From a virus, in the IMG/VR virus record IMGVR_UViG_3300030389_001472, positions 1 to 23,082 of that record: a DNA stretch of 23,082 bases; one strand, 5' to 3'. Within the stretch, counting starts at the first letter, position 1. Each line of letters starts with the position of its first letter. The translations under genes were made by a program, and so were the position numbers. The notes below the pieces were generated by a model that ran no database searches, was not told the origin of the DNA, and saw only the letters and a program-made list of their open reading frames with translations. Positions 17,386 to 22,555 of this stretch are shown piece by piece.

Positions 17386-17601
17386 ATGGAAGAAAGAAAA
17401 GAATTAGTAGAAAAATTACGAGTAATAGCAAATAGAATAGAAAGAAATAGACTAGACTATCGGTATGCTTGTGACAGAATAATTTTAGATAAATTATATG
17501 ATGAACTAAATAATGTTTTCAATAATTATCTTAAAATTAAAAATGAAGATGAACAAAAAGTTAAATCAATTAAATTTATGAATTATGGAAAAAGTAGTTA
17601 A
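17386..17601 (+). CDS. 71-residue helical protein, unknown
   Basis: This short charged protein (MEERKELVEKLRVIANRIER, then a region with DRIILDKLYDELNNVFNNYL) is almost all predicted helix. It starts 6 nt after the preceding stop and overlaps the next gene by 17 nt. No family or function recognised. The tight spacing on both sides is the main evidence that it is real. Confidence 0.72.
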   Translation: MEERKELVEKLRVIANRIERNRLDYRYACDRIILDKLYDELNNVFNNYLKIKNEDEQKVKSIKFMNYGKSS

Positions 17602-18019
17602 GTCAGTTAAACAAGTAGGAGATTTTGAATCTCAATATGGACACTTTTACAAGTGGTTATTAGAGTTTGAAGATGGATTTAAGGGTGAATACCTTTCTAA
17701 GACAGAAACTCAAAACAAATTCATTGAAGGACAAACAGCTTCAATAGAAGTAACGACAAGAGAGTACAATGGTGAAACAATCAACAAAATCAAACCAGCT
17801 TCTACTTTTCAAGGTGGAGGTAAAAGCTATACACCAGCTCCAAAAGACAATAAGACACAAGAGTACATTATCAAGCAGAACGCATTGACAAACGCTTGTA
17901 ATATAGTAGGAGAGGCTGATATTCCTAAGATAATAGAAATAGCTGACGCATTCAAAGAATACGTTTTAAACGATGTAAAACCAAAATCAACAAACGATGG
18001 CAATGACTTACCTTTTTAG
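17585..18019 (+). CDS. SSB-like protein with acidic C-terminal tip
   Basis: The first 75 residues of this 144-residue protein form beta strands (HFYKWLLEFEDGFKGEYLSK, ASIEVTTREYNGETINKIKP) that could make an OB fold. A Pro/Gly/Lys linker and helices follow, and the last residues are NDGNDLPF. This ending copies the acidic aromatic tip of bacterial single-strand DNA-binding proteins (consensus DDDIPF), through which SSB recruits replication and repair partners. Canonical SSB family motifs are not obvious, so it may be a diverged or analogous phage SSB. Its place in the replication operon agrees. It overlaps its neighbours on both sides. Confidence 0.72.
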   Translation: MEKVVKSVKQVGDFESQYGHFYKWLLEFEDGFKGEYLSKTETQNKFIEGQTASIEVTTREYNGETINKIKPASTFQGGGKSYTPAPKDNKTQEYIIKQNALTNACNIVGEADIPKIIEIADAFKEYVLNDVKPKSTNDGNDLPF

Positions 18020-18266
18020 CAAACAATCTCGTGACGAAGTATATGACTACGAAACCAGCTACTGTTTTAGACTAAGACGTGGCAAGGGTTGGATTCACCT
18101 AAACAAGAAAGCCACTGAGCTAATAGAACACGATGACCACTTTGAGATAAGACTAGCAGATTGGTATATAAATCTTGGAGATAAATATATCTCTGAAACA
18201 ATAATAAGACAAGAGCAATGTCAAGAGCTTCAAGAATGGTATTTAAAAACTAAGACAAATGGATAA
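17997..18266 (+). CDS. 89-residue protein, unknown
   Basis: The product (MAMTYLFSKQSRDEVYDYET onward) is mixed alpha/beta and rich in aromatic and charged residues (HLNKKATELIEHDDHFEIRL, LADWYINLG). There are two possible starts, ATG at 17997 and ATG at 18003; both are inside the end of the SSB-like gene. It overlaps the next gene by 8 nt. No domain recognised. It is most likely a small accessory of replication judging by its neighbours only. Confidence 0.72.
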   Translation: MAMTYLFSKQSRDEVYDYETSYCFRLRRGKGWIHLNKKATELIEHDDHFEIRLADWYINLGDKYISETIIRQEQCQELQEWYLKTKTNG

Positions 18267-18687
18267 AATAGATAGAGTAAAAAAAGTTGTGTGTTTTGTA
18301 ACTAAGATGACGGAAAAAGAGCTGCTATCTAAAAGTAGAAAAAGACACATAGTTGATAATAGACGGATGGCTTTTGTAATTTGCAGAGATATACTAGAAC
18401 TAAATTGGACTAAGATAGCCAAAGAGTTTAATTTAAACCACGCTAGTATCATACACCATTACAAAAAGCACAAAGACTTAATGGCTTACGATGATTATTA
18501 TAATAGTAAATATAACGATATTTTAGATGTATTTAAGTTACAAATAGACTATGTTGAGCCTAAAGAACTCATCAGAGAAATAGTAAATATTAAGAAGCAA
18601 AGATATAATGATTATCTAAAACAAAAACTAAGAGAGAATGAAGGTAAAGGACAAAGTGAAACAACTTTTATTGGACCATCCATCTAA
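18259..18687 (+). CDS. Stand-alone DnaA domain IV-like DNA-binding protein
   Basis: Residues about 23-72 of this 142-residue protein (SKSRKRHIVDNRRMAFVICR, then LNWTKIAKEFNLNHASIIHHYKK) follow the DnaA C-terminal domain. The basic 'S+.R...v..R..a.yl.r' helix comes first, then 'IG..F...H.tv.ha..ki', here with NHASIIHHYKK in place of DHTTVIHA. In DnaA this domain binds DnaA boxes. The AAA+ ATPase and N-terminal domains are absent, and the remaining C-terminal 70 residues are charged helices. It may mark an origin or compete with host DnaA. It overlaps the next gene by 50 nt. Confidence 0.85.
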   Translation: MDKIDRVKKVVCFVTKMTEKELLSKSRKRHIVDNRRMAFVICRDILELNWTKIAKEFNLNHASIIHHYKKHKDLMAYDDYYNSKYNDILDVFKLQIDYVEPKELIREIVNIKKQRYNDYLKQKLRENEGKGQSETTFIGPSI

Positions 18688-18946
18688 TAGAGATTCAGAT
18701 AGTAAACTTATAGCAAACTATTGGTATTATGAATTGAATAAAAAAGGTGTAGATTTACATCAGCTAAGTGCTTTTGATTTGCTTAAATACTATGCAGATA
18801 GTAGATTAACTAATGCAGAGTCAATAAGACGAATGAGAGCAAAGTTGCAAGAGCAACACATTGAGCTGAGAGGTAAGAAATACAATCTTAGAAAGACAAC
18901 AATACAAAACAAAGTTAGAAAGGAATTAGGATATGAAGCGTATTAG
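18638..18946 (+). CDS. 102-residue basic helical protein of the replication operon
   Basis: The product has LLLDHPSNRDSDSKLIANYW near the start and a central LLKYYADSRLTNAESIRRMR followed by KLQEQHIELRGKKY. The latter is a motif I associate with conserved hypothetical proteins in other phages ('LtnpesIrR.R.klQe..peLRG..Y'). Its function is unknown; DNA binding is possible from its basic helices. It starts well inside the DnaA-like gene and ends inside the initiator gene, so the three are probably co-translated. Confidence 0.75.
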   Translation: MKVKDKVKQLLLDHPSNRDSDSKLIANYWYYELNKKGVDLHQLSAFDLLKYYADSRLTNAESIRRMRAKLQEQHIELRGKKYNLRKTTIQNKVRKELGYEAY

Positions 18947-19637
18947 AGTAGAGAAGTCTAAGAACTTTACCACAATCAATAACGAGTTTATCTTTAATAA
19001 GAACTTATCGTTAAAAGCTAAGGGGTTGCTCTGTCACCTCTTGGCTTTGCCTAACGACTGGAAGTTATACGTAGAGGAGGTTGAAAAATGGAGTACAGAT
19101 GGCAAATCCTCTATTTACTCTGCTTTTAAAGAGCTGACATCTAATGGCTATATGAAACGAGAGCAAATTAGAGATAAAGGAAAGATTGTTAGCTGGGATT
19201 ATATAGTCTATGAAAAACCACATACCGATTTTCAAGAAATAGAAAATCAAGATGTAGAAATTCTAGATGTAGAAAATCAACCACTACTAAATACTAATAA
19301 TACTAAAGACTTAAATAAACTAAATACTAATAATACTAAAACAGAAAGGGATTATCCTTTTGAATTAAATTTAGAGGCTTGGAATTTATGGAAGGACTTT
19401 AGAAAAGAGCAATTCAGAACTTCTTACAAACCATTAGGCGAAGCAGCAGCTATTTCTAAGCTATTAAGAATCTCCAACAACAACAAAGAACACCAGGCGC
19501 AAATTATCCAGCAATCTATTGAGAATGGTTGGAAGGGATTATTTGAGCTTAAAACAGAAAAACAAAACAAAGTTCAAAAGATATTAAGCAACTATCACAA
19601 AGGACTTGAAATGATAAACAAAGAATACAATGAATAA
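18933..19637 (+). CDS. Phage replication initiator (O-like, winged helix)
   Basis: The N-terminal 95 residues of this 234-residue protein form a winged-helix domain of the type found in phage replication proteins (NFTTINNEFIFNKNLSLKAK, LLALPNDWKLYVEEVE, then DGKSSIYSAFKELTSNGYMK). Residues about 97-140 are a polar linker with two LNTNNTK repeats. The C-terminal part (EAWNLWKDFRKEQFRTSYKP, then IQQSIENGWKGLFELK) resembles regions that contact helicase or helicase loader. As in lambda O, the linker coding sequence carries direct repeats that could be the origin this protein binds. Neighbours include an SSB-like and a DnaA-like protein. Confidence 0.86.
   Translation: MKRIRVEKSKNFTTINNEFIFNKNLSLKAKGLLCHLLALPNDWKLYVEEVEKWSTDGKSSIYSAFKELTSNGYMKREQIRDKGKIVSWDYIVYEKPHTDFQEIENQDVEILDVENQPLLNTNNTKDLNKLNTNNTKTERDYPFELNLEAWNLWKDFRKEQFRTSYKPLGEAAAISKLLRISNNNKEHQAQIIQQSIENGWKGLFELKTEKQNKVQKILSNYHKGLEMINKEYNE
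19240..19340 (+). repeat. Iteron-like direct repeats, candidate replication origin
   Basis: A 21-bp sequence starting CTAAATACTAATAATACT is present twice without change at 19287-19307 and 19320-19340, 33 bp apart. Just upstream, TAGAAAATCAA occurs at 19240-19250 and 19270-19280, and GATGTAGAAA at 19251-19260 and 19266-19275. The block is almost entirely A/T and lies in the linker part of the initiator gene, where lambdoid phages carry their origin iterons. Confidence 0.65.
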
Positions 19638-20328
19638 AAAATATATTTATAAAAATCAAGAGTCTTTATGGGGCGAATCAGAGTGTATAGGATTTGGCAC
19701 TTATGATTTTTATGTTAAGGAAATAGATAGAAAATTAGCAAACGAAATAATTATTAAAAATCATTATTCTAAAAAAGTTTATAATGGAACTTATATACAT
19801 TTAGGGGTTTTTCATAATGAAAAATTAAAAGGGGTTTTACAATATGGTTATGCTATGAATCCTGCATCTTGTGGTAGTGTAGTTAAAGGTACTAATAAAA
19901 ATGAATATTTAGAATTGAATAGGATGTGGATAGATGATGATTGTAAACAATACGCAGAAAGTCAAGCTATAAGTTATTCAATTAAATATATTAAGAAAAA
20001 ATTAAAAAAAATTAAATGGATTCAGTCTTTTGCAGACGAAAGATGTGGAGGTTTTGGAATAGTATATCAAGCTTGTTCTTTTGATTATTTTGGAGAACAT
20101 ACAAATAAATTTTGGGAGCTAGATGGAGAAACATTTCATAATTCAATTATGACAAGTGAAAAAGCTGGTCGTAGAGGTTATAATTTATTAAATAATCCAT
20201 ACAATAAAGATAGAATCATCAAACACGAGCTTAGACAATTTAGATATATAAAATTTATAGACAAAAGGGAAAAGAAAAACTGTTTATTAAAACAAAAACC
20301 ATATTTAAAGCATTATAACAATGACTAA
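19630..20328 (+). CDS. Mom-like DNA modification protein (anti-restriction)
   Basis: This 232-residue protein follows the Mom family, close to the about 240 residues of Mu Mom. Mu Mom is a GNAT-like enzyme that converts adenine to N6-carbamoylmethyladenine and so protects phage DNA from many restriction enzymes. The family pattern is visible: NHYSKK (44-49), HLGVFHNEKLKGVLQYGYAM, YLELNRMWIDDD (93-104), AESQAISYSIKYIKK, then SFADERCGGFGIVYQACSFD and YFGE (133-156). The His-Tyr pair (45-46) and Asp136 are the residues I would expect to matter. The gene is visibly richer in AAA, AAT and TTA codons than its neighbours, suggesting separate acquisition. It overlaps the initiator by 8 nt. Confidence 0.86.
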   Translation: MNKKYIYKNQESLWGESECIGFGTYDFYVKEIDRKLANEIIIKNHYSKKVYNGTYIHLGVFHNEKLKGVLQYGYAMNPASCGSVVKGTNKNEYLELNRMWIDDDCKQYAESQAISYSIKYIKKKLKKIKWIQSFADERCGGFGIVYQACSFDYFGEHTNKFWELDGETFHNSIMTSEKAGRRGYNLLNNPYNKDRIIKHELRQFRYIKFIDKREKKNCLLKQKPYLKHYNND

Positions 20329-20485
20329 TTACTTAGATATAAAAGAGCGCAAAGACGTTACTGTCAAAAAGATGTTTGAGATTTACAAGACTGACAATAA
20401 ATACAGAAACAGAATAACTTGGGATGCTCATTATTTAATAACTGGATGGAAACACATACAACAAACTAAAGATGACAAAAAATAA
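20321..20485 (+). CDS. 54-residue protein, unknown
   Basis: The frame runs from an ATG 8 nt before the mom-like stop to a TAA inside the next gene (14-nt overlap). The product (MTNYLDIKERKDVTVKKMFE onward, ending GWKHIQQTKDDKK) is charged and helical. No family recognised. It fills the otherwise empty space between two overlapping genes, which argues that it is translated. Confidence 0.65.
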   Translation: MTNYLDIKERKDVTVKKMFEIYKTDNKYRNRITWDAHYLITGWKHIQQTKDDKK

Positions 20486-20897
20486 GACTAATCAAGTGTG
20501 GTATCTATATGCACACAATATTAAAGAACTAAAAAGACAATGCTATGACGTTATATCTACGCTTTATGTTCAGCTAGGACAAGCTCCAGAAGCTGAGATA
20601 ATAGTTCAGATGACTAATCTATTCTGTAATGACTTAGCTACCAACTACGGCTCTATGGAACTAGAGGAGGTTAGATTTGCTTTAAACAAACACATAAGAG
20701 AGAACGATGGTCCACACTTTGTAAACGTACCAATGTGGAGTCAAGCGTTAAGAGATTATAAAAAATCTAAAGCATTAAAAAGACAGACTAATCAAATAGA
20801 CCAATATGAACTCTATAAAAAGCGTGTTGAGTCATTTAGCAAGACAATAGATAAAAGAGAGATAAAAAAGATAGGCAATGCCAACCACAATAAGTAA
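20472..20897 (+). CDS. 141-residue helical protein, unknown, possible replication accessory
   Basis: The protein shows a helical domain at about residues 15-95 with LFCNDLATNYGSMELEEVRF and ALNKHIREND, then FVNVPMWSQALRDYKKSK. This general layout (an acidic 'eE...A' helix followed by 'v..w...l..Y') appears in phage proteins of the replication region, but I cannot name a family. The C-terminal 45 residues are basic and coiled-coil-like. It overlaps the NinG-like gene by 20 nt. Confidence 0.72.
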   Translation: MTKNKTNQVWYLYAHNIKELKRQCYDVISTLYVQLGQAPEAEIIVQMTNLFCNDLATNYGSMELEEVRFALNKHIRENDGPHFVNVPMWSQALRDYKKSKALKRQTNQIDQYELYKKRVESFSKTIDKREIKKIGNANHNK

Positions 20898-21267
20898 ACT
20901 CAAAAAAAAGCTAGATAAATTATTTAGTGAGTACATAAGACGTAAAAATGCAGACCATTTAGGTTTTATAACTTGTTTCACTTGTGGAGTTAAAAAACAT
21001 TGGAAAGAGCAACAAGCTGGACACTTTCAAAGTAGAAGCCACCACTCTACTAGGTGGGATGAGATTAACGTTCAAGTTCAATGTGTTAAGTGCAATATGT
21101 ATAGACAAGGAGAGCAATATAAGTTTGGAATGTATTTAGACCAAAGGTTTGGAGATGGAACGGCAGATGAGTTAGAACACAGAGCAAAGACAATATTAAA
21201 ACTTAACAGAGTAGATTATGAAGAGGCAATCGAAAGGTATAAACAAAAAATTAGAGAGCTGGATTAA
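20878..21267 (+). CDS. NinG/Rap-like recombination protein
   Basis: This 129-residue protein resembles the NinG family (lambda Rap), a structure-specific nuclease acting on recombination intermediates. It has the zinc-binding pairs CFTC (33-36) and CVKC (69-72), with QAGHFQSRSHHSTRWDEINV and CNMYRQGEQYKFGMYLDQRF between and after them, as in the family. The N-terminal helix LKKKLDKLFSEYIRRKNAD also fits. It is shorter than lambda NinG (about 200 residues), with a reduced N-terminal part. It would work with the replication proteins upstream. Confidence 0.9.
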   Translation: MPTTISKLKKKLDKLFSEYIRRKNADHLGFITCFTCGVKKHWKEQQAGHFQSRSHHSTRWDEINVQVQCVKCNMYRQGEQYKFGMYLDQRFGDGTADELEHRAKTILKLNRVDYEEAIERYKQKIRELD

Positions 21268-22039: not shown

Positions 22040-22214
22040 CATTGAATTAAAAGTTGATGACACAGAATTACTAGACGAGGCTAAAGACCGAGCGATTGAT
22101 ACTTTGATTGATAGCTTAGAGGAATGGATAAATAACAATGGCATTCCTCCAATAATAAGTTTAGAGTATAAGCTACCAGAATACGATGACAACGATTTAG
22201 AATTTTTAAACTAA
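22017..22214 (+). CDS. 65-residue acidic protein, unknown
   Basis: The product (MKIIASVSIELKVDDTELLD, then AIDTLIDSLEEWINNNGIPP and a strand ending in EYDDNDLEFLN) is strongly acidic and mixed alpha/beta. Small acidic proteins of phages often mimic DNA or bind host enzymes, but nothing specific supports that here. Its stop shares a base with the HNH gene start (TAATG). Confidence 0.68.
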   Translation: MKIIASVSIELKVDDTELLDEAKDRAIDTLIDSLEEWINNNGIPPIISLEYKLPEYDDNDLEFLN

Positions 22215-22555
22215 TGCCTAATCTACCAAAGGGAAAGAAAAAGAAATGGATAGCAAGTAGTAAAAAGACTACTGGATTTACTGAAAAGCATAAGAGCGAT
22301 AATTATGACTTTTATAATAGTAGAGCTTGGAGAAACCTTAGAAAGTGGCACATAGAACGAGAGCCACATTGTAAATGGTGTACTGAGGAGGGCAAAGTAA
22401 ATTATAAAGATAAGATAATCATTGACCACATTATTGAGATAAAAGATGGTGGAGACAGTCTGAATCAAGATAACTTAATGACTTTATGTCTACCACATCA
22501 CAATCAGAAAACGGCGTGGGCAAAAGCAAAACGTAAAAGAAATGGCAAAGAGTAA
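22214..22555 (+). CDS. HNH endonuclease
   Basis: This 113-residue HNH nuclease is of the HK97 gp74-like type that assists terminase-driven DNA cutting. Visible are the zinc/structural pair CKWC (53-56), the catalytic DHI (71-73), the Asn of LNQDNLMTLC (84-92) and HHNQKTAW (95-102), giving H-N-H order. A basic N-terminus (KGKKKKWIASSKKTTGF) probably binds DNA. HNH genes of this kind usually sit next to terminase genes, so the gene may lie close to terS once the genome ends are joined. Confidence 0.93.
   Translation: MPNLPKGKKKKWIASSKKTTGFTEKHKSDNYDFYNSRAWRNLRKWHIEREPHCKWCTEEGKVNYKDKIIIDHIIEIKDGGDSLNQDNLMTLCLPHHNQKTAWAKAKRKRNGKE

Follow-up and report, generated by a model that had tools for sequence, protein, structure and literature searches.

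A Mom-family gene in an exchangeable slot of a phage replication gene cluster

Why does a gene for a Mom-type DNA modification enzyme stand among the replication genes of a phage, and what would it do there? This question is raised by a 23,082-nt stretch of viral DNA (the window), a 23-kb contig from IMG/VR in which an initial annotation, made from the letters alone, had recognized a mom gene at positions 19630..20328 on the plus strand. The explanation that we consider very probable is that this gene encodes a Mom-type adenine modifier of the phage's own DNA, carried in an exchangeable cassette, probably made early and serving to escape restriction.

Family identity of the predicted protein

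The reading frame starts with ATG, has no internal stops and encodes 232 amino acids, and the motifs on which the annotation was based (NHYSKK, LELNRMW, FADERCGGFG and FDYFGE) are all present in its translation. A profile search, one of the checks that the annotation had proposed, identified Mom as the best Pfam and PHROG match, rather than another acetyltransferase family: the Pfam profile PF25680 aligns over positions 1-200 of 202 with an E value of 6e-70 and 235.4 bits, compared to a curated cut-off of 27.1, and PHROG 1384 matches with an E value of 4e-56. The sequence of Mu Mom in the PDB (8bv8) matches amino acids 16-225 (E 4e-58), and the best matches in an annotated phage collection are Moms of Pseudomonas, Aeromonas and Mu-like phages, at approximately 45-48% identity. 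Another proposed check, structure prediction, led to the crystal structure of Mu Mom. An AlphaFold model for which 33 aligned homologues were the input (mean pLDDT 90, pTM 0.83) has as its top PDB fold matches 8bv8_A (E 5e-27, TM 0.85/0.88) and 8bv8_B (E 2e-25).

Ordinary GNAT enzymes are found among the weaker fold matches, and many phage homologues of Mom carry the annotation "acetyltransferase", so that the protein could be thought to be a GNAT-family acetyltransferase that acts on a protein or metabolite instead of DNA. We regard this as extremely unlikely, because Mom comes out on top by Pfam, PHROG, PDB sequence and fold alike, and because the genomic positions described below otherwise hold DNA methyltransferases. 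A plain GNAT acetyltransferase was rejected given the lead of Mu Mom in the fold search, where ordinary GNATs reach an E value of 2e-5, far weaker than the 5e-27 of Mu Mom.

Conservation within the family agrees with the profile and the predicted fold. In an alignment of 24 homologues that includes Mu Mom and divergent relatives, the positions that never vary are I32, H45, Y46, G68, G73, E95, R98, D103, D136, G143, Y146 and A148; conservation at S111 and S115 is at least 90%. A 33-member alignment has 13 invariant columns, including H45, Y46, E95, R98, S115, D136 and Y146, with S111 at least 90% conserved. Several conserved positions are reportedly needed in Mu Mom, as judged by mutation. The title of 8bv8 names an inactive mutant, S124A, of Mu Mom; S111 of the window protein is probably the equivalent of Mu S124, given an assumed 10-residue offset between the numbering of 8bv8 and that of AF083977, and both nearby serines, S111 and S115, are present in the window Mom. 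The dN/dS ratio of 0.04-0.14 between the window gene and five homologues indicates that the gene is maintained by selection, and we rejected a decayed gene on this ratio. Like Mu Mom (AF083977, 8bv8), to which it is 44-45% identical, the window protein shows near full-length homology, the predicted fold and the core residues of the family. Sequence profile, conserved residues and predicted fold thus bear out the family assignment, and by sequence and model the protein is a true member of the Mom family, a predicted GNAT-fold DNA adenine modification enzyme that is a new enzyme of a known family.

Precise insertion and two slots for DNA-modification genes

Between 17386 and 21267, the window genes are arranged in head-to-tail overlap. 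This cluster includes, on the plus strand, genes for a DnaA C-terminal-domain-like protein (18259..18687; Pfam Bac_DnaA_C, E 5e-15) and a replication initiation protein (18933..19637; Pfam HTH_36, E 5e-7; phage initiator PHROG 4707, E 1e-26), followed by mom, a 54-aa gene (20321..20485) and a 141-aa gene (20472..20897), both of unassigned function, and a gene for a NinG/Rap-like recombination nuclease (20878..21267; Pfam NinG, E 3e-16; PHROG 5034, E 1e-26). An HNH endonuclease gene (22214-22555; Pfam HNH, E 4e-8) lies downstream of the replication cluster. The position first given for mom, between initiator and NinG-like genes, is correct in outline, but the two small genes at 20321-20485 and 20472-20897 separate mom from the NinG gene.

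Direct reading shows that mom is joined to its neighbors by two 8-nt overlaps on the plus strand. Its start lies on the stop of the initiator gene at 19630..19637 (ATGAATAA), and its stop lies on the start of the 54-aa gene at 20321..20328 (ATGACTAA). Empty sites in relatives identify these overlaps as the left and right insertion junctions. In L027, L036, L044 and L046, whose initiators are 90-96% identical to that of the window and whose sites were read base by base, there is no gene at the mom site, and the same 54-aa gene starts in direct overlap with the end of the initiator gene (AATGACTGATTAC in L044). The insertion of mom is precise and scar-free.

Two positions in this cluster accept additional genes: slot A, from the initiator to the 54-aa gene, and slot B, from the 141-aa gene to NinG, which is empty in the window. 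We counted their contents in 57 distinct contigs with initiators at least 60% identical, locating the borders by tblastn and scoring a slot as filled if it held a cargo gene of 130 aa or more. Of the 54 relatives in which slot A could be read, 6 have it filled; for slot B the count is 24 of 50. All of the 30 cargo genes scanned for family membership are DNA-modification genes, namely 24 methyltransferases (20 matching the C5-type PHROG 363 and four the N4/N6 PHROG 67) and six Moms; representative Pfam matches are DNA_methylase, N6_N4_Mtase and Mom. The counted exception is L084 (initiator 61%), whose larger interval contains thymidylate synthase along with other genes. Where initiator identity falls below 60%, slot contents further include a Dam methyltransferase (L098) and a PAPS-reductase/ParB pair (L092). 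Three or more lineages are represented among the slot Moms: the window type (window and L007), a divergent type that is 24-31% identical to the window Mom (L048:4668-5345 in slot A; L049:5496-6173 and L032:5499-6125 in slot B), and that of L053.

The closest relative of the window Mom, in L002, is 94% identical in amino acids and 88.8% in nucleotides over 670 nt, and the L002 contig shares with the window only mom and a weak (67%) match in the NinG region. In a FastTree phylogeny of 131 Moms, these two group together with a support of 99, inside a 74-row clade that contains only IMG/VR viruses (support 95). Adjoining this clade is a 45-row Mu-type clade from phages and genomes, mostly of Pseudomonadota and Desulfovibrio-type. 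The Mom of L007, which occupies slot A beside an initiator 94% identical to that of the window, is found elsewhere in the IMG/VR clade, apart from the window Mom, suggesting that slot A has probably been filled or refilled more than once. The divergent slot Moms of L048, L049 and L032/L033 group in the same tree with the Mom of Polaribacter phage P12002L. Mom is a common family in these viruses; in one pattern search, relatives were found to be encoded in 488 IMG/VR stretches.

Base composition, which the initial annotation had described as differing from that of the neighbors, indeed does so: the GC content of mom is 25.5%, compared to a mean of 34.3% among window genes of approximately 80 aa or more (z -2.9), although a few small window genes are even lower, and its third-position GC content is 15% compared to 26% (z -2.0). 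In all 31 comparisons, the cargo gene has a lower third-position GC content than the neighboring initiator (p 9e-10), which makes the odd composition of mom a general property of cargo. The suggestion that mom is a cargo gene was upheld by the empty sites in near-identical relatives, by the L002 mom in an otherwise unrelated phage, and by exchange in the slots with methyltransferases and other Moms. Taken from sequence comparison, these observations point to the slots as exchangeable sites for anti-restriction cassettes, such that near-identical phages differ in their DNA-modification gene or have none. A similar pattern has been reported in cryoconite phages, in which methyltransferases are the commonest identified genes exchanged between near-identical phages (PMC7468147). 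The exchangeable genes there are orphan methyltransferases, whereas the slots described here are used by Mom as well as by methyltransferases. In the literature that we covered, which is partial, we found no paper describing Mom as a member of such an exchangeable set.

Several other features of these loci were observed. A family of 82-84 aa with no Pfam match is present in slot A of most relatives (L025:4698-4946 and approximately 40 others) and absent from the window; its gene stands alone or after the cargo gene. Both slots are filled in L053 (4665-6447), with an N4/N6 methyltransferase in A and a divergent Mom in B. An in-frame TAA lies within the profile match of the L053 Mom in a genome search, so the C-terminal end of this protein may be truncated. 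In slot A of the more distant relative L092 (4668-6911), DUF3440/PAPS-reductase and ParB-like proteins resemble the IbrA/IbrB pair; since DNA modification is the function of other slot genes, these two may form an unrecognized DNA-modification or anti-restriction module. A second link between ParB-like proteins and Mom is seen in Psychrobacter phage vB_PmaS_Y8A (L151:882-2139), where a gene with a ParB/sulfiredoxin domain overlaps the Mom gene by 8 nt. Another distant relative has a gene for a GNAT acetyltransferase other than Mom between the 141-aa gene and NinG (L087:6306-6866).

Expression of mom in a replication cluster

In Mu, mom is a late gene under the control of C and overlapping com, and further transcriptional and translational measures, including Com, restrain it (PMC4461284). 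The window mom, in contrast, has no com, lies in the replication cluster and overlaps the initiator gene. The initial annotation had remarked on the lack of a visible com-like regulator. This proved accurate for the window, where no Com-like ORF was found and zinc-knuckle-like frames are limited to NinG and one on the reverse strand near 22.8 kb, and it is general in the clade of the window Mom. We searched with Mu Com by tblastn, which might overlook a strongly diverged regulator, and some of the loci covered were truncated or duplicates. None of 97 related IMG/VR Moms had a Com-like match nearby, compared to 27 of 61 loci of named phages or cellular genomes that had one upstream of mom. Judged by position, mom is in the replication cluster rather than at the genome end, where the Mu-type late gene lies under the control of C. 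A hairpin controlling translation at the mom start, as in Mu, was considered and rejected for the window, since RNA folding there was no better than in shuffled sequences (z +0.5). A sigma-70 promoter scan of the region gave promoter-like matches no more frequently than shuffled sequences.

The head-to-tail overlaps from 17386 to 21267 make it likely that mom is transcribed together with the replication genes, and the overlap of its start with the initiator stop suggests translational coupling. We infer, soundly in our view, from this overlapping gene order that mom would be expressed early. Mu Mom is lethal if its expression is untimely or high (PMC4461284), and so uncontrolled early expression in the window phage would need a tolerance or a form of control that is not visible here.

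Other phages carry Moms in different settings. Aeromonas phage pAEv1818 and Pseudomonas phage PAN70, which are annotated without a Mu-like end position, encode Moms 44-48% identical to that of the window, but the genomic positions of their mom genes differ from that in the window, and PAN70 has a Com-like match upstream. The cultured flavobacterial Polaribacter phage P12002L (KR136259) has a Mom gene, P12002L_0053, beside a DNA methylase and NinG and near a DnaA-like gene; this Mom is approximately 28% identical to the window Mom and falls among the divergent slot Moms rather than those of the window type. The Com-less, translationally coupled, probably early setting of the window mom is thus unusual, but P12002L and the cryoconite phages are precedents for it.

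Proposed role and its significance

We propose that the product of the window gene is an enzyme of the Mom type, built on an acyltransferase fold, that would modify adenines in the phage's own DNA. The product would most likely be N6-(carbamoylmethyl)adenine, as in Mu, and several host restriction enzymes may then no longer cut the modified DNA. Carried as a scar-free exchangeable cassette in an overlapping replication gene cluster, mom would be co-transcribed, translationally coupled and made early, and so could modify DNA soon after its replication, free of the control by Com and C that operates in Mu. The base modified, the chemical group, the early expression and the protection from restriction are all parts of this proposal that we infer. 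An anti-restriction phenotype is conferred by Mu mom (PMC4461284). Because mom occupies slots that methyltransferases also use, its most likely role is to protect against host restriction, and this positional equivalence, drawn from gene order, is the best evidence for it.

By analogy, the Mu adduct is the most likely chemistry of the window Mom, but the adduct could differ because only 44-45% of residues match. A DNA-modifying Mom homologue with a chemical group or sequence target other than that of Mu Mom, still serving anti-restriction, would be consistent with this modest identity, with the separate IMG/VR clade beside the Mu-type clade, and with slots that take protections of differing chemistry (C5 methylation, N4/N6 methylation and Mom). 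We consider this alternative unlikely, since the residues that do not vary from the window Mom's clade to the Mu-type Moms span the core motifs HYS, ELNR.W, FADERCG and VYQA, and the modeled fold closely matches that of Mu Mom. Mom could also mark or damage other DNA, to the detriment of the host or of competing phages, instead of protecting that of its own phage. Inappropriate expression of Mu Mom kills cells (PMC4461284), and jumbo phages have some Mom domains joined to nuclease domains (PMC7824862). The window mom carries no nuclease fusion, however, and most of the genes that take its place in the slots are plain methyltransferases, of a type known to protect phage DNA, so that this use seems very improbable. 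Protection of the phage's own DNA remains the reading that we prefer.

The host of the window phage is only suggested. Searches of the phage collection found no DNA related to the window, and its terminase and initiator match only distant phages. The AT-rich sequence and the near absence of Shine-Dalgarno-like motifs, present at 2 of 34 window starts, would fit a Bacteroidota host; a Bacteroidota-type promoter pattern, with one match per strand, gave no evidence for such a host. Inferring the host from a Mom search in 399 genomes of the phylum of L197 was rejected, as one match, L356, is the same sequence as Magnetococcales contig L180.

Mom has been studied almost only in Mu, where elaborate late controls restrain its toxicity. 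A natural Mom with no visible Mu controls that is swapped for methyltransferases between phages otherwise nearly identical would allow a direct test of tolerance to early Mom and of Mom chemistry outside Mu. We speculate, tentatively, that a widespread clade of uncultivated phages uses a Com-independent, early, translationally coupled Mom as one of several interchangeable protection cassettes at set positions within the replication cluster. Such a Mom might differ from that of Mu in adduct or target and would have a built-in means of avoiding Mom toxicity. The slot system would inform how phages exchange protection as the restriction systems of their hosts change. The slots also offer a search route to new DNA-modification genes, for which the other genes found in them are candidates.
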